Source: Candidatus Bathyarchaeota archaeon (GTDB lineage: Archaea > Thermoproteota > Bathyarchaeia > 40CM-2-53-6). Taken from it: a DNA stretch of 18,125 bases. Numbering within the stretch: position 1 is the first letter of the stretch; each line of letters begins with the position of its first letter. Made by a program: the position numbers and the translations under genes. Where the stretch lies: positions 50,260 to 68,384 of the forward strand of contig VBBQ01000031.1 in assembly GCA_005888755.1 (NCBI GenBank). Reading direction: 5' to 3'. This document shows, in pieces, positions 1 to 17,749 of this stretch. The notes under the pieces are model-generated. The model searched no databases. It saw nothing but the letters and a program-made list of their open reading frames with translations, and was not told where the DNA came from.

Positions 1-3000
1 CCAACCGGCTCAACCAGTTTTACCTGGGTTCCATTCTCCAATGTTGTCCTAGCGAGTCCTAGCGCGTCCTGTTCCTCTTTGGGAAGGAACTTCAAGCCAA
101 GCCATCTGAAGATATAGTCGACTACGGACTTGGCGAATCGGATCTCCTGGTTGGTCGTTATGCCAGCTGGCTCGAACCGTGTATGCGTGAACTTGTTCAC
201 AAGCACCTTCAGTGGGACACCATACTGTAGGGCTAGAGAAATGGAGGTTGAGAACGCGTCCATCAATCCCGATATTGTGCTGCCCTCTTTCGACATCACC
301 ACGAATATCTCGCCGGGAGTGTTGTCATCGTAGAGGCCTACCATGAGATAGCCTTCGTTCTGGGCGATCGAGAACTTGTGAATGATCGCTTCTCTCTCTT
401 CTGGCAGTCGACGTCGGAAGGGCTTGAAGACCACCTGCTCCTTCGTCTTCTCGATTGCTTTGCTTTTGTCTTGAATCGTCGTGGTTAGCGGCTGGGTCCT
501 CTTAGAGCCGTCTCTATAGATGGCAATGGCTTTCAATCCCATCCTCCAAGCGGTGACGTAAGTCTCGACGATCTCTTCCACGGAAACGTTGCCGGGCATG
601 TTCACCGTCTTGGATATGGCACCGGAGACGAAAGGCTGGACAGCGGCCATCATCTTGACATGGCCCATGTAGTGTATGCTTCTCGTCCCCTTAGATGGCT
701 TGAAAGCGCAATCGAAAACAGGCAAGTGCTCTTGTTTGAGGTGAGGAGCGCCTTCTATCGTGTCGTGATCTTCAAGATACTTGAGAATCTCGCCAGCCTC
801 GGTCTTGGAATAACCGAGCTTGATTAGCGCTTCAGGAACAGTATTGTTGACTATCTTGATTACTCCGCCTCCTACGAGCCACTTGTATTTCACCAAGGCA
901 ATGTCAGGTTCGATGCCAGTGGTGTCGCAGTCCATCATGAACGCGATCGTTCCAGTAGGCGCAATGACGGATATCTGGGCGTTCCTGAATCCGAACCTCT
1001 CGCCCAAGGAGAGAGCGTCATCCCAGGACTTGAGCGCGGCTTTCAACAGCTCCTCGGAGACTCCCTCTGCAGAAATCTTGTAAGCGTGGGCCCTGTGCAT
1101 GTCGATCACGTTGAGAAATGGTTTCTCGTTTACAGCGTATCCTTTGAACGGGCCTAGCCTCTTGGCTATCCGCGATGATGCTGCGTATGCTCGACCGGAC
1201 ATTAGAGCGGATATGGCCGCAGCGTAATTTCGCCCCTGGTCGCTGTCGTACGGGAGGCCTCGCGCCATTAGCAGGGCACCTAGGTTGGCGTATCCAAGTC
1301 CCAGCGGACGAAAATCGTGACTATTCTTCTCAATGGCAGGGGTGGGATAGCCTGCGTTGCTGACAAGAATCTCTTGGGCGCTGATTACGATATCAACTGC
1401 GTGTTCGAAGGATTCGACGTCAAACTCCCCGTTCACGTCTCTGAACTTCATGAGGTTCAAGGAGGCAAGGTTGCACGCGGAGTCATCGAGAAACATGTAT
1501 TCAGAGCACGGGTTGGATGCGTTGATCCGATTCGTGTTCGGGCATGGATGCCAATTGTTGACTATCGTGTCGAACTGGATTCCGGGGTCGCCGCAAATGT
1601 AGGCGGCCTCGGCCATCTCTCTCACAAGGTTCCGGGCCTTGTAGACGTCTGCGACTTGATGATTCGTAATATATCGTGTCTTCCACTCCTTGTCCTCTAT
1701 CACGGCGTGCATGAACTCATCTGTGACTCGGACGCTGTGGTTGGCGTTCTGGAAGAAGATAGAGCTGTAGGCTTCTCCGTCGACGGCTCCGTCGTAACCT
1801 GCGTCGATTAGGGCCCAAGCCTTCTTCTCTTCCTTGGCTTTTGACCAGATGAACTCTTCAATATCGGGATGGTCGACGTTTAGAATGACCATTTTCGCGG
1901 CGCGACGGGTGCGTCCACCGGATTTTATGACTCCTGCGAACGCGTCGAAGCCTTTCATAAACGAGACAGGGCCACTGGCCTTTCCACCGGTCGACAAGTG
2001 TTCTCTTGACGATCGTAGAGATGAGAGGTTTGATCCGGTTCCGGATCCATACTTGAACAGCATGCCTTCAGTCTGGGCGAGCTGCATTATCGATCGCATG
2101 TCGTCTTGGACGGAGTTGATGAAGCAATTGTGTACGACGACGTTCTCCGATAGGTAGTGGCCGCTCAGTGTTTGTATGTCGTAGACAGGCTTTTCTCCTA
2201 GTTCTTCAATAGAGACTATGGTTTCCCACCGAACGTCCGGACAGTTTTTGCCCGGGCTCACTAGGGACTCTTGCAAGCGTTCTTGCTTGCGAGAACTGAT
2301 GAACCCAATCAGTTCTGAGAATCTCTTTCTCTCACTCCTTATGCTTATGTCGACCTCCCAGAGGTCATACCTATCTGGCCTCTTCTCCTTCTTCATACGA
2401 AGTCTGCTGTATATTCCCAGGCAAAGCAGCAGCCGTTGAACGTCTCTAGCGAGAGATCTACTGATTACGGCGAAGCCGACGTGGGAACTGTTGCTGCTTG
2501 TAGACACGGTTACGTATCCTTCAGCCTGAAAGAGACTCCTCAGATATTCGATGATGACCTCTTTGCTAGCTGCAACCAGGTTCCTGGGAGCTTGCATCGC
2601 GGCCCCTCTGTCGAGAAGATTGTATTTCGTTACGAATGGTGCTAGTGTCTCACCGTACATCCGCACCCTCCTATAGTTGACATCCGGGCTCTGGACTTTA
2701 ACCGGAGTTACGTTGTAGTGGGCGTTCTGGAATACTTTCCCTACCCTGCCTAGTACGAAATCGTATTCTTGATTGTTTGCTGTCTCGAATTCAAGAGTCA
2801 ATGACTTGTTCGTTCCGCCCGGGTATTGGCCAACGAACCCGTCAGACTGTAGCCAGCCAGCAAGCGCCGCCTCGTCCTCTGAGACGGAGTCATGCATACT
2901 TCCGTCGAATAAGGGTCTGGATGCTACTATCCCCTTGTGTGCGTGAAGTTGTAACTTTGTGCCTATCTTTAGCTCGTCGACGCGTTGCCAAGTGCCAACA

Positions 3001-3677
3001 GTTCTCCTTTTCGATGAAGTAAGTACAACATGGTCTCCGGTGACATCTACTGCAACTCCGTTGGATACTGTAATCCGGTACACTTTCTTGACCCCATTCT
3101 GCTTTACACCTGTTACCAGGGTGATTCCTTTGGAGTCATAGACAGGCAAGCCTAGCAGGTTGCGTGATACAATGTCACCAATAGGAGTCATGCCGTAGGG
3201 AGTGCTTATCATCGCGTCGTATGGTTGACAGGCGGAGCATTGGGGGCGGTCTTCGACTCCTACGTTGAACCATACTGGGCTGTTGAAGGCGGCCATCTGG
3301 TGGAGGAGGATGTGGGTGAGTTCTGACTCGAAATTCTCAGCTTCCTCCTCATCTATGAAGTAGTTTCCTTTTCGGCCCCAGCGGGCGATGGTTCCCGCAA
3401 CGCGGCCTATGAGTTGTTTGACGCTACTTTCTCTTCCTGGGGTTCCGAGTCTTCCGCGGAAGTATTTCGAGGCGACGATGTTTGTGGCCGTCTGGGACCA
3501 GAACGAGGGAACTTCGACGTTCTTCTGCTCGAAGATAACCTGTCCCTTGTGGTCGGTTATGACCGCGTCCCGGATCTCCCACTTTATTGCGTCGTATGGG
3601 TAGACGCCTGGTTTGGTATAGGACCTTTGATATCGGAATTCCCCTGGGGGAACCTTCGGTATTTGTTGGATTTCCAT
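1..3677 (-). CDS. nrdJ: Class II (B12-dependent) ribonucleotide reductase, intein-containing, C-terminus cut by window edge
   Basis: Reduces ribonucleotides to deoxyribonucleotides in the cytoplasm using adenosylcobalamin to make a cysteinyl radical. I translated the minus strand from ATG at 3677-3675; the frame stays open to base 1 (1225 codons, 857 after removing the intein), so the C-terminus lies outside. Recognisable blocks are CSA-CFINSV split by the intein, the radical motif NPCSE (Cys codon 1508-1506) followed 11 residues later by the second redox Cys in SACNLASLN, FRPLGLGYANLG, and APTGTIAFMMDCDTTGIEPD, typical of the large NrdJ form. By analogy with Thermotoga NrdJ, the CFIN Cys and the SAC Cys form the reducing pair and the NPC Cys carries the radical. 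All three are present. Near the left edge, SGLMDAFSTSISLALQYGVP and FRWLGLKFLP match the C-terminal region of the family. An AGGT lies 8 nt before the ATG. No partner subunit is visible, as expected for class II. Confidence 0.96.
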   Translation of the reverse strand, partial: MEIQQIPKVPPGEFRYQRSYTKPGVYPYDAIKWEIRDAVITDHKGQVIFEQKNVEVPSFWSQTATNIVASKYFRGRLGTPGRESSVKQLIGRVAGTIARWGRKGNYFIDEEEAENFESELTHILLHQMAAFNSPVWFNVGVEDRPQCSACQPYDAMISTPYGMTPIGDIVSRNLLGLPVYDSKGITLVTGVKQNGVKKVYRITVSNGVAVDVTGDHVVLTSSKRRTVGTWQRVDELKIGTKLQLHAHKGIVASRPLFDGSMHDSVSEDEAALAGWLQSDGFVGQYPGGTNKSLTLEFETANNQEYDFVLGRVGKVFQNAHYNVTPVKVQSPDVNYRRVRMYGETLAPFVTKYNLLDRGAAMQAPRNLVAASKEVIIEYLRSLFQAEGYVTVSTSSNSSHVGFAVISRSLARDVQRLLLCLGIYSRLRMKKEKRPDRYDLWEVDISIRSERKRFSELIGFISSRKQERLQESLVSPGKNCPDVRWETIVSIEELGEKPVYDIQTLSGHYLSENVVVHNCFINSVQDDMRSIMQLAQTEGMLFKYGSGTGSNLSSLRSSREHLSTGGKASGPVSFMKGFDAFAGVIKSGGRTRRAAKMVILNVDHPDIEEFIWSKAKEEKKAWALIDAGYDGAVDGEAYSSIFFQNANHSVRVTDEFMHAVIEDKEWKTRYITNHQVADVYKARNLVREMAEAAYICGDPGIQFDTIVNNWHPCPNTNRINASNPCSEYMFLDDSACNLASLNLMKFRDVNGEFDVESFEHAVDIVISAQEILVSNAGYPTPAIEKNSHDFRPLGLGYANLGALLMARGLPYDSDQGRNYAAAISALMSGRAYAASSRIAKRLGPFKGYAVNEKPFLNVIDMHRAHAYKISAEGVSEELLKAALKSWDDALSLGERFGFRNAQISVIAPTGTIAFMMDCDTTGIEPDIALVKYKWLVGGGVIKIVNNTVPEALIKLGYSKTEAGEILKYLEDHDTIEGAPHLKQEHLPVFDCAFKPSKGTRSIHYMGHVKMMAAVQPFVSGAISKTVNMPGNVSVEEIVETYVTAWRMGLKAIAIYRDGSKRTQPLTTTIQDKSKAIEKTKEQVVFKPFRRRLPEEREAIIHKFSIAQNEGYLMVGLYDDNTPGEIFVVMSKEGSTISGLMDAFSTSISLALQYGVPLKVLVNKFTHTRFEPAGITTNQEIRFAKSVVDYIFRWLGLKFLPKEEQDALGLARTTLENGTQVKLVEPV
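2127..3230 (-). mobile_element. Intein with LAGLIDADG homing endonuclease inside the ribonucleotide reductase
   Basis: A 368-residue in-frame insertion. It starts with Cys1 (TGT, 3230-3228) in CQPYDAMISTPYG, has the block B TxxH motif as VTGDHVVL, and ends VVVHN followed by Cys+1 of CFINSV. All residues needed for standard Cys1/His-Asn/Cys+1 splicing are there. The central part carries two LAGLIDADG-like helices, LAGWLQSDGFV and LRSLFQAEGYV, each with its acidic residue, so the endonuclease could be active. Precise removal restores QCSACFINSV, the normal class II reductase sequence. The junction sits directly before the redox-active Cys, so the reductase should not work unless splicing occurs. 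Junction placement is firm because both sides rejoin a conserved motif. Confidence 0.93.
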
Positions 3678-7934: not shown

Positions 7935-9260
7935 TTATCCCATGTGCTCAGGTATCGTCTTGAGCGACCGCACTGGCGAGAGCAAAACCCAGAGAAACGA
8001 TAGCGAGCCCCCGAGTATCGCTATTCCAATCGCGGTCCGCAGTCCCAGAAACTCTCCCAGAATCCCCCCCGTAATAGCTCCGAGAGGTATTGTACCCCAG
8101 ACTAGGAAACGCATCGTCGCGTTCATTCGGCCTTGAAGACGCAGCGGAACTATCGCCTGTCTCAAACTCACCTGGTTGACATTGTAAACTACGGTCGCGA
8201 TGAAGCTGATGAACTGGCCTGCCATGATGGAGAGCATGCTCCAGTTGACCCCAAACCCTCCCAGCGTAAACAGGGGAGATACCGTTAGGGACCCTGACAG
8301 ATAGTAGGGAATGGCCCCCAATCCTCCAATGAGGATGCTCCCGAGTATGGCAGGTCCAACTCCAATGTTCCTTGCCACCTTAGTAGAGACTGCGACTCCA
8401 ACCAGAGCGCCGACGCTGGCCACGCTGAAGATTATTCCCGCGGTAACTCCGGCGAGATTTTCGGAGACTCCAAGCCCAGCAGGGCTAGGCTGAATCAAGT
8501 AGAGTAGAAAGAGTGTGCCCAGCGCGGTTCCAAAGAAATTGGATGTCCCTGTACAGCCTGCGATCATCCGAAGCATTCTGTTGCTGAAAACAACATGGAG
8601 CCCTTCTCGAATATCAGCTAATACCGAAGGCTTCACGATTTCTTTGTCGATCACCTCTTCATGATCTATTCGTCCTAGTGCGAGTGCGGACGCGAAGAAT
8701 GAAAATGCATCAAAGACAATGGCGATGGGCGCGGTGATTATGCTGATGATGATTCCTGCTATTGTTGGTCCCGCAACCTGAGCTGTAGAGGCGCTTGCCT
8801 GCAGATTGCGGTTTCCTTCGACAAGCTGGTCCCTGCGCACTAGAGAGGGCAGGTAGGATTGGTATGTGATGTCGAAGAAGACCTGTAGGAATCCGACACA
8901 GAAGCTTATCGCGTAAAGAAATGGAATTCCGAGTTTTGTTATGACTCCCAGGACGGCTGCTATCGGAATTAGTGCGAGTATTGATCCACGTAGAATGTTG
9001 GAGGTAACCATGATGCGCTGTTTACGATGCCTGTCAATCCATACGCCGGCTACGAGCCCGAAGATCAACCAGGGCACGGACCCTGCGAAGTTGAGTATTC
9101 CGACCTGAACAGAGTCCGCGCTTAGAATGATAATGGCTGTTAGAGGCAGGGCTAGCCCGGTGAACTGGCTGCCAAACTGGGAAATGGTCTCGGATGTCCA
9201 GAGCTTTAGGAAGTTGGGATTCCGCCAGAGCGTCTCCTTCTGGACGGTCGTCGTCTCCAT
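7935..9260 (-). CDS. Major facilitator superfamily transporter (MFS_3-type exporter)
   Basis: An integral membrane secondary transporter of 441 residues with about 11-12 hydrophobic segments. The order NPNFLKLWTSETISQFGSQ at the N-terminus, the loop 2-3 motif GVWIDRHRKQR (equivalent to the MFS motif A), and YLPSLVRRDQLVEGNRN after helix 4 are characteristic of the MFS_3/EntS-like drug and siderophore exporter group. Substrate cannot be deduced. The ATG at 9260-9258 is preferred to an in-frame TTG at 9269: it lies about 26 bp from a box A (CTTAAGAAT on this strand, 9282-9290), which suggests a leaderless transcript. A palindrome sits directly upstream of the box A and may be the site of a repressor or activator. 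Confidence 0.92.
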   Translation of the reverse strand: METTTVQKETLWRNPNFLKLWTSETISQFGSQFTGLALPLTAIIILSADSVQVGILNFAGSVPWLIFGLVAGVWIDRHRKQRIMVTSNILRGSILALIPIAAVLGVITKLGIPFLYAISFCVGFLQVFFDITYQSYLPSLVRRDQLVEGNRNLQASASTAQVAGPTIAGIIISIITAPIAIVFDAFSFFASALALGRIDHEEVIDKEIVKPSVLADIREGLHVVFSNRMLRMIAGCTGTSNFFGTALGTLFLLYLIQPSPAGLGVSENLAGVTAGIIFSVASVGALVGVAVSTKVARNIGVGPAILGSILIGGLGAIPYYLSGSLTVSPLFTLGGFGVNWSMLSIMAGQFISFIATVVYNVNQVSLRQAIVPLRLQGRMNATMRFLVWGTIPLGAITGGILGEFLGLRTAIGIAILGGSLSFLWVLLSPVRSLKTIPEHMG

Positions 9261-9281
9261 GCGGAGCAAGATCTAATTCCG

Positions 9282-9425: not shown

Positions 9426-9833
9426 ATGTTCGTAAGGGTCAAGAAAGTAGGACCGAGACGATATGCCTACTTGGTAGACGGCGTAAGAGAAGGGAAACGC
9501 GTCCGGCAGAGAACTCTCTGCTATCTTGGCCCCGTCTCAAAAATCGTCTCAGGCATACCAGAGAATGTTAGAAAAAAGATTGAGGAAAGATTTCAGGTGA
9601 ACTGGGACAAAATAAATTATGAGATACGCCGGATTCCACTTACCTTCGAAGAAATATCTAGGGCAAGACGGGCGCAATTTGCCGTCTCTATCAGAAACCG
9701 TAAGATGGGCTTTCGAAGTCAAGGCGATCTGCCCAGAGCGGAAGGAGAACTCGCGGCTCTCTCCAAGCTCGCTGCGATAAAGTTCAGGAAAATGTTCGAG
9801 GAGATCGGAGAAAGAGAATACCGCATGCGATGA
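9426..9833 (+). CDS. Protein with IS1634-transposase-like N-terminus, putative antitoxin partner
   Basis: A 135-residue protein. The first 35 residues (MFVRVKKVGPRRYAYLVDG, then REGKRVRQRTLCYLG) resemble the N-terminal beta domain of IS1634-family transposases, including the RQR..LxYLG ending, but there is no transposase catalytic domain. The remainder is highly charged and helical. Its stop overlaps the start of the nucleotidyltransferase by 4 bp (ATGA), so the two are translationally coupled. Such coupling to a nucleotidyltransferase, together with the operator-like repeat upstream, suggests the antitoxin or regulator of a toxin-antitoxin-like pair. That role is inferred from context. A basic N-terminal beta domain could bind DNA. 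The ATG is at leaderless distance from ATTATTATG. Confidence 0.65.
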   Translation: MFVRVKKVGPRRYAYLVDGVREGKRVRQRTLCYLGPVSKIVSGIPENVRKKIEERFQVNWDKINYEIRRIPLTFEEISRARRAQFAVSIRNRKMGFRSQGDLPRAEGELAALSKLAAIKFRKMFEEIGEREYRMR

Positions 9834-10402
9834 CAACTGCAAGACGCTCCAACAAAATCACCTCGCGCCCACTCACTGCTCGAACACTCGTTTCAGAGCT
9901 CAAGAAGGAACCGAGCGAGCTGAAGAAGAAAATGCTCCTTCTCGGATACATTACCGACAGGCTTGAGAGGAAATCGCAATCTGTCTACCTTGTCGGAGGC
10001 CAGGCAGTCGAAACCTATACCGCCGGACAATTCACTACAGGTGATATCGACATCACCACCACAGATCAGGAGGCAACTGAGGAAATTCTTGCCCTATTAG
10101 GGTTCAAAAGGGAAGGAATGGTCTGGATTAACGAGGCGATAAGCGTCGCTGTTCACATTGTCGACATGGTTCCGAAACGCGTAGAGAAGGTACGCACGAT
10201 TCATGTTCGCAACTACGCGGTACGAGTTGTGGGAGTTGAAGAGTTGATAATCGACAGACTTGCCGCTGCGAAATTCTGGAAGAGCCAACGTGATGCGGAA
10301 CAGGCCAAGGCTCTCCTCAGCGGCTTCTCAAAAAGCATCGACGTGAAATATCTAAGAAGAAGGGCCAAAGAAGAGAAAGTTGACGACGTACTTCCCAAGT
10401 GA
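9830..10402 (+). CDS. Nucleotidyltransferase-fold protein (DUF6036-like), putative toxin
   Basis: A 190-residue protein with the minimal nucleotidyltransferase signature: YLVGGQAVE (Gly56-Gly57) followed by GDIDIT (Asp72, Asp74), i.e. GG...DxD. The C-terminal half has the pattern EELIIDRLAAAKFWKSQRD and then DVKYLRRRA, known from DUF6036-type proteins near restriction, abortive-infection and toxin-antitoxin loci. Related enzymes transfer nucleotides to tRNA or proteins; the target here cannot be predicted. It overlaps the upstream gene by 4 bp and converges on the intein-bearing gene with a 30-bp gap. A housekeeping role is possible but less likely for a small stand-alone member. Confidence is high for the fold, moderate for the toxin role. 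Confidence 0.75.
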   Translation: MTTARRSNKITSRPLTARTLVSELKKEPSELKKKMLLLGYITDRLERKSQSVYLVGGQAVETYTAGQFTTGDIDITTTDQEATEEILALLGFKREGMVWINEAISVAVHIVDMVPKRVEKVRTIHVRNYAVRVVGVEELIIDRLAAAKFWKSQRDAEQAKALLSGFSKSIDVKYLRRRAKEEKVDDVLPK

Positions 10403-10432: not shown

Positions 10433-11776
10433 TCAACGAGCGTTGTAGACTAGGATTACAGGTTTTCCTTCGAACCTGTAGCTGCTGTCGATCCACGCTT
10501 TGTGTCGCCCGTATCTTTTCAGTGTAGATTCAGTATGGGTCTTGTCCCCATCTAGCCGATAGCCGGTCCATGTTCCATCCTGGCTAGAATACTCCGGCGG
10601 CAAATCGGCACAGTTATGGACAATGAAGGATAGAAGGTAGGTGTTTGACGGTGTCTCCATGTTGCAGACCTTGCCCGAGAAATTCTCTCGCTCGACCTTG
10701 TTTATCCTAACCCAGAAGCCGTTATCCGTCCTTACTACGTGACTGGCTTTGTTTGAGTGTTTGCTGCCGTCTTGATGGAATCGTATCTCGTATGATGGCT
10801 TCGCGTTGACCTTCCGTCCCTGGATTATCCCTCTCTCCTTTCTGTCATCCTCGTAGATGGCCGGAAGAATGCCGAGCCGCGAACCCATGAGCAGAGCCTG
10901 GTAGGCGGCTGTTTTGGAGGATGTTGCGAGTGTCCAAGTGTTCCCTCGTTTGAAACCGTCTCCTTTCAGCCATCCTTCGAGGAACGGTTGAGGATCGCGC
11001 TGTTCTAGAATCCACGATGGGATCTTCCTACTGACCACTCTGCTGCCAAACTCTTTCCTCATGAAGTCTGCCAAAGCAGGTTTCGAAAAACGTACAAGAA
11101 GTCCAGTTCTATGATGGTTGATCGTGCCCTTGACGCTCCAGTGCTTTTCCGCCATCCGAAGGATGTGCTCGGCAAGTTGCCGTTCCTTGTGTCCCAGTGC
11201 AAAGTACACTTGATTCCCTGTGGGATATCCTTCGGCCATGTATAGTCCGAGGAGGTAGAGGAGTTCGGGATCTCCTTCTCTATTGCCTTTGAAGAGGGGG
11301 AAGAAGACCCAATCTTTCTCTGTTAGCTCTCCCGCTGGTTTCCAGGTTTTCTTCAGTGATGGTCGTGTTTGAGGGTTGTACCATTTCGATTTTTGCGGAT
11401 TCGATTCGCAGGACAATACCGGATGTTCCGGAGTCAGACGTGTCTCTGGAAGAAGGAATGGCCTTACAACAACAAGCTCTCCAGCATAGTCTCTCTCGAA
11501 ATACCGCGATGGAAGCTCATAATTTCCGTTCGCCGATACTACCGAGTCCAGTTGTTCGCCCATTGATTCTATTCCAGGGTTGGTGAACACTGAGTCTCCC
11601 TTCGGGACGCACCAGAATGAGTATCCTTTGTCTTTGTATTTTTCGTAGATGTCTTTGAAACTGCCGTAGTCTTCTGTGTTGATCCAGCGGTAGTAGTGGT
11701 ACTTGTATCGTACCCGGATCTTGAACTTACTCGGATGGTTCTTTGAGCGTTTTTTTCTTTTCTTTCTTGATTCCAT
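10433..11776 (-). CDS. Small uncharacterised protein interrupted by an intein
   Basis: The ORF encodes 447 residues, of which 333 (56-388) are intein. The mature spliced product would be about 114 residues: an N-extein of 55 (very basic MESRKKRKKRSK start, then Tyr-rich KFKIRVRYKYHYYRW and YGSFKDIYEKYKDKGYSFW) and a C-extein of 59 beginning CADLPPEYSSQDGTW and ending GKPVILVYNAR. I do not recognise the host family. Composition (many Tyr, Trp, Lys, Asp) suggests a small soluble domain. ATG 11776-11774 is the only good start. It overlaps the end of the upstream 69-aa gene by 50 bp in another frame, so the two are probably coupled. The locus faces the nucleotidyltransferase pair, in a stretch that looks accessory. 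Confidence 0.8.
   Translation of the reverse strand: MESRKKRKKRSKNHPSKFKIRVRYKYHYYRWINTEDYGSFKDIYEKYKDKGYSFWCVPKGDSVFTNPGIESMGEQLDSVVSANGNYELPSRYFERDYAGELVVVRPFLLPETRLTPEHPVLSCESNPQKSKWYNPQTRPSLKKTWKPAGELTEKDWVFFPLFKGNREGDPELLYLLGLYMAEGYPTGNQVYFALGHKERQLAEHILRMAEKHWSVKGTINHHRTGLLVRFSKPALADFMRKEFGSRVVSRKIPSWILEQRDPQPFLEGWLKGDGFKRGNTWTLATSSKTAAYQALLMGSRLGILPAIYEDDRKERGIIQGRKVNAKPSYEIRFHQDGSKHSNKASHVVRTDNGFWVRINKVERENFSGKVCNMETPSNTYLLSFIVHNCADLPPEYSSQDGTWTGYRLDGDKTHTESTLKRYGRHKAWIDSSYRFEGKPVILVYNAR
10613..11611 (-). mobile_element. Intein with LAGLIDADG homing endonuclease in the small protein
   Basis: A 333-residue intein. The N-junction is SFW/CVPKGDSVFTNPGIESMG, with Cys1 codon at 11611-11609 and a good block A. 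Block B contains TPEH in RLTPEHPVLSC (the TxxH motif). Endonuclease helices are LLYLLGLYMAEGY and FLEGWLKGDGF, both with acidic residues, separated by the block D-like KIPSWIL. Block F is NTYLLSFIVHN followed by Cys+1 (ACA on the plus strand at 10610-10612). All splicing residues are intact, so it should splice and may home. It is distinct in sequence from the intein in the reductase. Confidence 0.88.
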
Positions 11777-11936
11777 TGCCGTTGTTTGGCTCAGAGTTGT
11801 TCACCAGCTGTTTTTCCCATTCGTGAGCGAGCCGGATGAAAACGTCCTTGCTGGGACACTTCAAGCGTTTCGTGTGGTACTGGACAAACCGGATGAAACT
11901 GTCGATATCATTGTCTTCTTCGAAGTCAACGGTCAA
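11727..11936 (-). CDS. Small acidic-then-basic protein of unknown function, upstream of intein gene
   Basis: At least 69 residues. An acidic beginning (DFEEDNDIDSF), a helical middle (VQYHTKRL, then DVFIRLAHEWEKQLV) and a low-complexity Asn/Lys-rich tail (NNGNGIKKEKKK) that overlaps the downstream gene by 50 bp. No family recognised. The only standard start is TTG at 11936-11934. The frame is open for 11 more codons back to a TAG at 11972-11970 and reads ATRYIL just before the TTG, which looks like a beta strand continuing into TVDF. A GGAGG (11963-11959) sits in this extension, 4 nt before an ACG and 22 nt before the TTG, so the true start may be upstream of the TTG. Overlap with the intein gene suggests a common transcript. 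Confidence 0.55.
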   Translation of the reverse strand: MTVDFEEDNDIDSFIRFVQYHTKRLKCPSKDVFIRLAHEWEKQLVNNSEPNNGNGIKKEKKKTLKEPSE

Positions 11937-12106
11937 TATGTAGCGCGTGGCCGTCTCTCCTCCGTTTCGCTATCCCGTCTCGCCGACTAAGCAACGTTCA
12001 CTGTTGAAGGTTAAGCGAATCGAAACCCGTGGACGGTCTCCATAGTACTATCGAATTACCCGTCACTATGAGAGATTGCGAGTGTTCGCTGGTCTAATGT
12101 TCTAGA

Positions 12107-14782: not shown

Positions 14783-17506
14783 CTAGTTGAAAACTGGCAA
14801 TTGATACTCGATGGCTGCTAGTGCTAGGTCGAGGATGGTGACTTTCCCATCCGCGTTCAGGTCATATGAGACGTTGTACCCGGGTCCGCCCATCTTTGAG
14901 CCATACGAGATGGCTATCAGGGCCAGGTCGAGTATGTTGATTGCTCCATCGTCGTTCACATCGGGGTCCCTAGACACAGAACAACTGGCATTGTTGCTGG
15001 AGATGTTGACAGTGCACGCAGCTCCCAGCCATGAAGAACTTGTCGGTATGGTCAGGACAAACCTCGCGGTCGAGCTGGAGCCATAGCCAACCGATACGGT
15101 GTAGGTCTTGGAGAAGACCGTCTGACTGGTAGTGCTATTTGTCACGATGATCGAGACTGTACCATTAACAGTCTTACTGGTCGTATCTGGGGTGAAGTTG
15201 CCTGAGACCGATACTATCACGCTGTCAAAGGTAAGGGTCTGCTGAAATTGTGGCTCACTGGTTTGAGCAGTGAAAGGCTTCATCAATGGATACCGGTCAA
15301 CTGAGCCGACACAACAGACCGAGTAAATAGTGTCTCCTATGCCATCATTGTCCGGGTCGCTTCCGCCGTAGTCGGACCAGTAGTTCCCCCCGATGGGATA
15401 GCCGTCGTCCCAAGTGATGCCGGTATTGGACTGGTAGGCTTGCGAGTCGTTCTGGATGAAATTGTTGTGATAGATGGCCGACTGGTTTGTCCCGGTGATT
15501 TGCATGCCGATGTGAGTGTACGATATGTTGTTCCCTGCGACGATTACGTTTGTGGAATAGTCGAGTTCGATGCCCGAGCTTTCACCATAAGCCTGGTAGA
15601 AACCGTCGGAGATACTATTACCTGTGACCATCAGATTGCTCGAATGGATGATTGAGAGTCCGTCGATGAAGGTCCCCCCGTCTATCGTGTTGTCTGAGAT
15701 GGTCGCTCCGTTTACAAACATCACTTTCAGAGGATACCTTGAGAGACTGAGTCGCAGGTTTGAAACTCTGACATTACGACAGTTTGCGATAATCAATTGT
15801 CCGACGCTTACTCCATCCACAGTCAGGCCTGAGCAGTCCGTGTAATAGTAGAGAGGCTGGCCGTTTACGAGATTGTACAAGCTCGGGTCGACATCGTACG
15901 TGTATGTGCTCGGATAGGGGTTGATATTGTACGAGCTGAGCTGTGCAGGAGACCCGCTCAGATCGATTCCGCTAGCATCGAATCGATTTCCCCTCAGAGT
16001 TACATTCATCGAGCTGGAGATACTCGCATCTAGATGGCCCGCATCGCCGTACAGGTTGCTGATCGCCCTTCCGAACTCGTTACGGAGCAGCTTGACATTG
16101 CTGCTCGAGGTTATGTCAACTCCATCTGGGTTGCTACACGAGTCAGGGGAACCGTAGCATGCTACGCCATCGTTCATGGCGGAGTCTTTGATCACTCCAT
16201 TCTGCACGTTCGCGAGCTCGATGCCATCCGACCCGGGGTTGTTGATATAGACATTGTCTATCGTGAAGTACGCTTTCGTGTCGGATATTACGATTCCAGG
16301 GCTGGCGCAACACAAGAAGTCTGTGGAGATCGCCCAGCCTTGAATCACATAGGGATCGGTGAATGTTCCTGACCCTCCCGTTACACCATTCGCAATTGTG
16401 AAACCCGTGTCTCCGTGTATGACGATCGGATCGTGATCAGTAAGACCATTCACGTTTATCGTCACTGACGTGGACAGATTTCCGCTGGTCGCTGTCACAG
16501 TTATTGTAAAGCTCTGCTCCACCATGGTGGTACTCTGGATCGCCACGTAGAGTGTTGACTCCTTGGGCTCACCAACCCATACAGTGACTGTCGTATCCAT
16601 CGTCACCGAAAGCCCGGACGACGGTGTAGCAACAGCGGCAAGGTTCACGGTCCCCTCGAACCGCCCTAGACTGCTCACGTAGAACGGGTCCGATACATTC
16701 TGTCCCGGCAGGACGGTGACTGACGAAGCACCAGCTACCATGAAGTAAGGATTGGTAGGCGGCGTCGAGGGAGAACCAGACGCTTGCATCCAGTCGACCT
16801 CAACATTCGCAAACCAAGGCGCGCCAACCTCGATACCGGCGAGGTTAGTATTCCCGGCAGAGGTGTCAAATTCGGTAAAGTCTCCTACTAAGACGCCATC
16901 AAAGTAGGTGTAGAGTGTCCCCTGCACCATGTCTACCCTGAGGACGTGCCACGTGTCCAACTCTGGCGAATAGCCCGGAAATCGCGCCACACCGCGACCA
17001 TCGTCACTAATCCCAAACCCAGGATTGGTGCGAACGCAGCTGCACTGGCCGAGGGGGTCGGGAACATAGTAGCCATCGGCGAGGAAGCTGTACGAGTGGC
17101 CGGCTGTCCGAACGCCGAGAGCAATGGACCCGACTGGGTTGCCGATCCACCGTCCGCGGAGTGAGACGCTCCAGTTTGTTACCCCTGCGGGAGCATGGTT
17201 CCATTCAACTGCTGCACCAACATAGCCATCGTCGAGGAGCGTCAAGATCCCATTGCTGCCGTTGAAGTACGACGGAGGGGCGCCGCCGGTAGTCCATCCT
17301 GCGGCCTGAAGCTGGTCGATAGACGAGTAGTTGAAATCGTCTCGGAAGCTCCAGGAATCGGAAGATTGGGCCCTGGCAAGGATCGTGTTCAGGCTAGGGA
17401 CTGCCGTTAGGGTAGAGAGTAGAATCAGGAATACTGCGACGACTATTTTTCTTAGAGATATACCTCCGGAAGGTGAGGACGGTATCCTTACTGAGAGGAT
17501 TCTCAT
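14783..17506 (-). CDS. Secreted NosD-like parallel beta-helix protein with C-terminal dockerin
   Basis: A 907-residue extracellular protein. Order: leader with signal peptide (hydrophobic core IVVAVFLILLSTLTAV, about residues 22-37, cleavage near ILARA-QSSD); a concanavalin/LamG-like beta-sandwich (about 45-240, SWSFRDDF, LRGRWIGNP, WHVLRVDMVQGTLYTYFDG); an Ig-like repeat (SVTVLPGQNVSDPF); a NosD-type right-handed beta-helix (from GDTGFTIANGVTGGSGTF, with repeated NVxLxxNxF and NxISDG turns); another beta domain; and a type I dockerin (DVNDDGAINILDLALIAISY and DLNADGKVTILDLALAAIEY) with two Ca-binding loops. Roles would be in surface carbohydrate binding or assembly. The ATG at 17506-17504 is chosen: a box A AGTATTTATT (17531-17540) lies 29 bp upstream, and the longer start at 17590 would precede it. 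An internal GGAGGT (17467-17462) lies within codons 14-15. Confidence 0.88.
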   Translation of the reverse strand: MRILSVRIPSSPSGGISLRKIVVAVFLILLSTLTAVPSLNTILARAQSSDSWSFRDDFNYSSIDQLQAAGWTTGGAPPSYFNGSNGILTLLDDGYVGAAVEWNHAPAGVTNWSVSLRGRWIGNPVGSIALGVRTAGHSYSFLADGYYVPDPLGQCSCVRTNPGFGISDDGRGVARFPGYSPELDTWHVLRVDMVQGTLYTYFDGVLVGDFTEFDTSAGNTNLAGIEVGAPWFANVEVDWMQASGSPSTPPTNPYFMVAGASSVTVLPGQNVSDPFYVSSLGRFEGTVNLAAVATPSSGLSVTMDTTVTVWVGEPKESTLYVAIQSTTMVEQSFTITVTATSGNLSTSVTINVNGLTDHDPIVIHGDTGFTIANGVTGGSGTFTDPYVIQGWAISTDFLCCASPGIVISDTKAYFTIDNVYINNPGSDGIELANVQNGVIKDSAMNDGVACYGSPDSCSNPDGVDITSSSNVKLLRNEFGRAISNLYGDAGHLDASISSSMNVTLRGNRFDASGIDLSGSPAQLSSYNINPYPSTYTYDVDPSLYNLVNGQPLYYYTDCSGLTVDGVSVGQLIIANCRNVRVSNLRLSLSRYPLKVMFVNGATISDNTIDGGTFIDGLSIIHSSNLMVTGNSISDGFYQAYGESSGIELDYSTNVIVAGNNISYTHIGMQITGTNQSAIYHNNFIQNDSQAYQSNTGITWDDGYPIGGNYWSDYGGSDPDNDGIGDTIYSVCCVGSVDRYPLMKPFTAQTSEPQFQQTLTFDSVIVSVSGNFTPDTTSKTVNGTVSIIVTNSTTSQTVFSKTYTVSVGYGSSSTARFVLTIPTSSSWLGAACTVNISSNNASCSVSRDPDVNDDGAINILDLALIAISYGSKMGGPGYNVSYDLNADGKVTILDLALAAIEYQLPVFN

Positions 17507-17530
17507 ATGATTTTTCGGTGGGGTTTCGCG

Positions 17531-17540
17531 AATAAATACT
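17531..17540 (-). promoter_or_regulatory. Box A of the NosD-like gene
   Basis: The minus strand reads AGTATTTATT about 29 bp upstream of ATG 17506, consistent with leaderless transcription and with choosing that ATG. The 17541-17749 spacer upstream holds nothing else recognisable. Confidence 0.5.
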
Positions 17541-17749
17541 TTCCTCACATGACGATACCCTAAGCTATCAGTTGGTAGAAAACTCTGCAAATCGGAGATC
17601 TTTCATATTCTAGAATCCTATCAGATACCCTTGCTGTACTTTGGCTGTTATTTCTCGACGAACATTGGGCTCAAGTCAAAGAGAACGACCTCAGATTGGC
17701 ATGATAGGCGATGGTCCTACTCTCTATTTCGCAATAAGGGGAATGTTGC

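Follow-up and report, generated by a model that had tools for sequence, protein, structure and literature searches.

The window, by which we mean the whole 18,125-nucleotide stretch of Candidatus Bathyarchaeota DNA that was analysed, carries a small host gene interrupted by an intein, a short partner gene that overlaps the start of the host, and a gene for an MFS transporter further downstream (Table 1). The intein is inserted between W55 and C+1 of the host. It begins with Cys1 (CVPKGDS...), has TPEH (TxxH) at intein residues 60-63 within a block B that reads RLTPEHPVL, and ends in NMETPSNTYLLSFIVHN (...SFIVHN), followed directly by Cys+1. The LAGLIDADG pair consists of ELLYLLGLYMAEGY (LLGLYMAEG) and PFLEGWLKGDGF (FLEGWLKGDG), and in the window copy both motifs have their acidic residues (MAEG and KGDG). 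In Pfam, LAGLIDADG_3 (PF14528) matches the intein over its cut-off (E=1.1e-8). The splicing-domain family PF14890 reaches 14.7 bits (E=0.027; cut-off 35.8) in a match that is interrupted by the nested endonuclease, and TIGR01445 reaches 14.3 bits (cut-off 24.5). Since the Pfam splicing-domain match is sub-threshold, it is the set of motifs and the comparison with relatives that carry the intein assignment. Judged on these, this segment is a class-1 intein of full length that carries a putative LAGLIDADG endonuclease, a standard element of the ordinary homing type in an unusual host.

Table 1. Genes and features of the intein locus; positions are those of the window.
Feature	Position	Strand	Description
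Upstream partner gene	11727-11936	(-)	69 aa from TTG; overlaps host start by 50 bp
Precursor ORF	10433-11776	(-)	447 aa; intein within 114-residue host
N-extein of host	11612-11776	(-)	55 aa; starts Lys/Arg-rich, ends ...GYSFW
Intein	10613-11611	(-)	333 aa; precursor residues 56-388
HINT splicing domain			Intein residues ~1-110 and 291-333
LAGLIDADG endonuclease			Nested in intein; intein residues ~111-290
C-extein of host	10433-10612	(-)	C+1ADLPPEY...LVYNAR; 59 aa plus stop
Two ORFs	9426-10402	(+)	135 aa, and 190-aa DUF6036/AbiEii-like nucleotidyltransferase; between C-extein and MFS gene
MFS transporter gene	7935-9269	(-)	Conserved downstream neighbour; right edge of replaced block
NosD-type repeat protein	14783-17590	(-)	935 aa, predicted exported
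NrdJ	3-3677	(-)	Vitamin B12-dependent ribonucleotide reductase with its own LAGLIDADG intein

The first-pass annotation had described an intact intein with complete splicing signals and two LAGLIDADG motifs, and the copies in relatives bear this out with a single exception. An intein is present in 12 of the 15 genomes that carry the host, as 11 complete copies and one that is split over two contigs (G013). All 11 complete inteins, which come from 11 species, are exactly 333 aa long and free of indels, and C1, T60-P-E-H63, H332, N333 and C+1 are invariant among them; VHN|C is also present in the C-terminal fragment of the twelfth. The exception is G014, the only complete copy in which the endonuclease no longer has its first catalytic acid (MAEG to MAGG). 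This loss fits decay of the endonuclease after fixation, as in the homing-cycle model (PMC1654191). The annotation had also proposed a search for homologues free of the intein, and three were found (G003, G009 and G012), with the host joined exactly at W|C (...YW or WW|CADLPP). With precisely this segment absent at W|C from three homologues, the insertion is not a matter of chance. All of the genomes compared are MAGs, in which chimeric contigs are a possibility.

Searching 151 genomes with the spliced host gave matches in 15, all of them members of one family (f1) of soil Bathyarchaeia, where the host is found in 15 of the 21 MAGs searched. The named records among them are MAGs from soil that carry the labels Candidatus Bathyarchaeota (BA_2 to BA_25), Crenarchaeota or archaeon (13_1_40CM and 13_2_20CM series), together with a single Centralia MAG. 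When 256 genomes from the class and 398 from the phylum were searched by profile for distant homologues, the matches were at chance level only. The six MAGs of the family without a host match are 52-87% complete, and one of them (G001) contains the first 32 residues of the partner gene, suggesting that the host is probably a core gene of the family. The W and C that flank the insertion site are invariant in all homologues, in agreement with the earlier proposal that the intein sits in a conserved core, and the N-extein is 75-98% identical among relatives. Extein pN is 0.00-0.10 at pS values from about 0.3 to saturation; for the C-extein of clade A, the window's clade, pN is about 0.02 at a pS of 0.66. 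Purifying selection on host and partner is strong, and the very low pN of the host with pS near saturation indicates that the spliced protein is needed.

No match of note to the host was found in Pfam, NCBIfam, PHROG, PADLOC or the PDB sequences. PNPase_C was considered and rejected, as the match spans only 15 residues and lies below the cut-off. With Foldseek and VIA-align 2, an AlphaFold model of the host (pLDDT 70) reached no structural match better than Z 3.2, and a scan of viral contigs revealed no relatives of host or intein. On these searches the idea that the host is a fragment of a larger known protein was rejected, and the annotation's view of it as small and unrecognised stands after both family and structure searches. 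We conclude that the host is a genuine small protein without a known family, restricted to one lineage.

The partner gene is homologous to ATG-started genes that read MRYILTVDFE... As the annotation had stated, it overlaps the host by 50 bp, and both the gene and an overlap of this type are kept in 15 of 15 host-bearing genomes, which also answers the question of whether the upstream gene always accompanies the host. Outside the window's clade the partner ORF starts four codons further upstream, with ATG or once GTG, and the host frame may begin six codons earlier, with ATG in most of those copies; at L034 the earlier host start is required, since host codon 1 is ACG. The annotated starts of both ORFs are therefore uncertain by a few codons. 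The partner start position used elsewhere (window position 11948, minus strand) is ACG in all clade-A genomes and ATG or GTG in other lineages, and a GGAG-type purine stretch lies upstream of the ACG. Clade A has either a non-standard start at 11948 or a shift of the start to the TTG at 11936.

An AlphaFold model of the partner (pLDDT 66) has two helices after an N-terminal extended stretch, with no strand assigned. Among other matches, it shows weak similarity to the ribbon-helix-helix proteins CopG, MazE6, TacA2 and AtaR at Z of about 3.6-4.1, values that lie in the range of common structural arrangements. Ten members searched against Pfam (E up to 10, default filters) had no match, a result with which a divergent ribbon-helix-helix member is still compatible. 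The partner thus resembles these regulators and antitoxins in its two predicted helices after an N-terminal stretch and differs from them in having no sequence family match and a neighbour without a toxin family. We regard a weakly ribbon-helix-helix-like, DNA-binding partner as a lead and not a result. The most economical guess is that the host may be a basic, nucleic-acid-associated protein co-translated with this small ribbon-helix-helix-like partner, as suggested by models of low confidence (pLDDT 66-70). A toxin-antitoxin pair was also considered for the two genes and set aside: they are core-like in one family (15 of 21 MAGs) and vertically conserved, and no toxin domain was detected with Pfam, NCBIfam or PADLOC.

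The MFS gene adjoins the host downstream in 14 of 16 fetched loci, and the upstream side is variable. The gap between host and MFS gene contains inserted ORFs that differ between genomes; one of them (L038:2595-3200) encodes a 201-aa protein of no known function with relatives in L039, L041 and L042. Elsewhere in the window, the protein with NosD-type repeats has a C-terminal dockerin-like domain, here in an archaeon. The annotation had suggested a conserved two-gene unit, possibly of mobile origin. The unit is indeed conserved, while its single copy number, its MFS neighbour, purifying selection and confinement to one family argue against mobile origin. The host and its partner belong to the chromosome and are maintained as a unit by vertical descent; they are no mobile cassette.

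To follow the intein between species, we used the synonymous difference (pS) in RPB2 as the species yardstick. Two sister pairs differ in intein presence, G003 (without) and G008 (with), and G009 (without) and G016 (with), at an RPB2 pS of 0.10-0.11. Between the window and G014, pS is 0.08 in RPB2 (at most 0.11 in RPB2 stretches of intein length), 0.05 in the MFS gene and 0.03 in the partner gene, as against 0.47 in the intein and 0.41 in the C-extein. ORF1, MFS, GNAT and the N-extein all fall at 0.03-0.16, and the borders of the divergent block are abrupt. At the nucleotide level, identity between the two is mostly 92-100% until the end of the N-extein and about 75-95% across the intein; it is lost in the intergenic region, where different ORFs are inserted, and is about 98% again in the MFS gene. 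The two plus-strand ORFs of the window belong to the block in which it differs from its sister genome. G013, the third member of this trio, has a third intein allele, and the intein tree rejects the window and G014 as sisters (p=0.023).

A second case is G009, whose left half resembles its sister G016 and whose C-extein resembles that of the distant intein-free G012. The C-extein pS is 0.32 between G009 and G012, at an RPB2 pS of 0.73, and 0.92 between G009 and G016. The C-extein data reject a grouping of G009 with G016 (p=0.006), and RPB2 rejects a grouping of G009 with G012 (p=8e-12). This pattern fits a precise loss of the intein, or an avoided gain, through recombination with an intein-free allele. 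Recombination tracts begin at, or span, the intein insertion site. The intein of G020, which belongs to another genus, falls inside the window's clade (support 96/99), with an intein pS of 0.47-0.59 to that clade compared with about 0.80 in RPB2, and an AU test rejects its exclusion from the clade (p=0.026). In the reverse test, RPB2 does not reject G020 with the window's clade (p=0.136), and an intein tree with clade A held without G020 costs nothing (p=0.36). As these two values are non-significant, the G020 transfer rests mainly on the silent-site distances and one AU test. The RPB2 tree needs at least three changes by gain or loss of the intein. Overall, the sequence comparisons show that intein alleles have been exchanged, gained and lost between species of soil Bathyarchaeia.

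The left flank of the intein shows unusually little silent change. In the partner gene (first 49 codons), pS within the window's clade is 0.21, and in the N-extein it is 0.10, both below the minimum of 0.34-0.37 for RPB2 stretches of equal length. The low silent divergence stops abruptly at the insertion site, and the mean within-clade pS of the intein (0.47) and the C-extein (0.66) is inside the RPB2 range. The silent-conserved stretch covers window positions 11612-11976 on the minus strand and homologous DNA in L032, L033, L035, L037, L038, L039 and L041. Between clades, silent divergence of the partner gene is ordinary, which tentatively favours a sweep of the left haplotype over constraint. 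Concerted evolution from extra copies of the partner and N-extein DNA was rejected because these occur as a single copy in each of 14 genomes, and homing-linked gene conversion does not serve as a simple cause either, since the flank has diverged less than the intein itself. Somewhat doubtfully, we suggest that endonuclease-driven recombination with breakpoints at the insertion site re-assorts the host halves between species, so that each half has a history of its own. It is also conceivable that partner and N-extein, the left part, are kept near-identical across species by a nucleotide-level function or by repeated sweeps.

Our preferred reading, to which we assign a probability of roughly 0.87, is that a small, conserved and lineage-specific protein has been entered by a class-1 homing intein carrying a nested LAGLIDADG endonuclease, and that alleles with and without this intein circulate by recombination. 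Splicing would proceed through an N-S shift at Cys1, transthioesterification to Cys+1 and cyclisation of Asn333, and excision, as the invariant residues suggest, would leave the two halves of the host joined as one continuous protein of about 114 aa. The endonuclease would cut intein-free copies at the W|C site, repair of the cut copies would bring in the intein plus part of its flanks, and intein-plus and intein-minus alleles would hence pass between species by recombination. An old intein that is inherited vertically, with the sister divergence produced by a locally raised mutation rate and the intein-free species by simple losses, is unlikely. It would agree with the mean within-clade pS of the intein, which is close to the RPB2 average of 0.52, and three losses on the RPB2 tree would be enough; against it stand the abruptly bordered divergent block that separates the window from G014, amid flanking genes at 0.03-0.16, and the C-extein of G009, which is so much closer to that of G012 than to that of its sister.

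The annotation had further raised the idea of the intein as a switch. In the form considered here, the switch would be post-translational and to the benefit of the host, the small protein staying inactive until a soil condition such as redox or temperature triggers splicing. Cases of conditional protein splicing have been reported, in RadA of Pyrococcus and in mycobacterial DnaB (PMC5790916, PMC6195587), and the presence of the intein in 12 of 15 genomes, with splicing residues and endonuclease conserved in nearly all copies, would agree with a switch. In three close relatives, nevertheless, the host gene is free of the intein, and two of these have a sister that carries it; the intein-free species retain the same host protein (79-86% identity). 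Allele replacement between species is the behaviour of a homing element, and the intein copies compared showed neither an additional domain nor an atypical splice motif. The analysis turned up no evidence for a regulatory switch, which we consider very improbable, and unneeded. Least credible is the reading of the 69-aa ORF and the host as one gene joined by a frameshift in their A-rich overlap. The overlap with its A-rich stretch is kept in all 15 genomes, but the shift would have to be +1 (or -2). Every copy also retains an ATG or TTG start codon for the host, either at the host start or a short way upstream of it, and the run of A is variable; a frameshift fusion is not favoured.

Most reports of inteins concern large enzymes that are conserved across many lineages. 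That one occurs in a small, one-family protein suggests that extreme conservation around the site may suffice for homing. The locus is also a record of recent exchange among uncultured soil Bathyarchaeia, for which gene flow is difficult to quantify, and draws attention to a two-gene unit that is highly conserved. The mechanism is a familiar one, but its target, the host protein, is unusual and puzzling. Among the papers of the library searched, none names inteins together with Bathyarchaeota.

The genome that contains the window (G000) is unusually rich in inteins, with about 10 or more (L128-L138, on contigs C1, C3, C11, C17, C18, C30, C32, C37 and C43). Their hosts include a CDC48-type ATPase, EF-2, MCM, a Hel308-like helicase, an A-type ATP synthase subunit, DNA polymerase B, 2-oxoacid:ferredoxin oxidoreductase, NrdJ and endonuclease IV, and additional candidates include a radical-SAM protein. 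Every host named here is a large enzyme of a known kind, so that the 114-aa host stands out as exceptional. Among the inteins of this genome that were compared, the closest is that of endonuclease IV (AP endonuclease; G000:C3:19.1-21.1 kb), which aligns over the full length with 29% identity (E=3e-35) but is longer (about 377 aa) and occupies a DT|CH site in a TIM-barrel enzyme. The NrdJ intein, in the usual kind of host, has no meaningful sequence similarity to the intein described here. The presence/absence polymorphism and the transfer between species are shared with halobacterial inteins (PMC4071816). In Cys1, TxxH, the LAGLIDADG pair between the splicing halves, HN and Cys+1, the intein is like the class-1 LAGLIDADG inteins of archaeal PolB, MCM, RFC and RIR1. 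It differs in its location: class-1 inteins usually occupy large replication, nucleotide or ATP enzymes, whereas this one lies in a 114-aa host of a single archaeal family.
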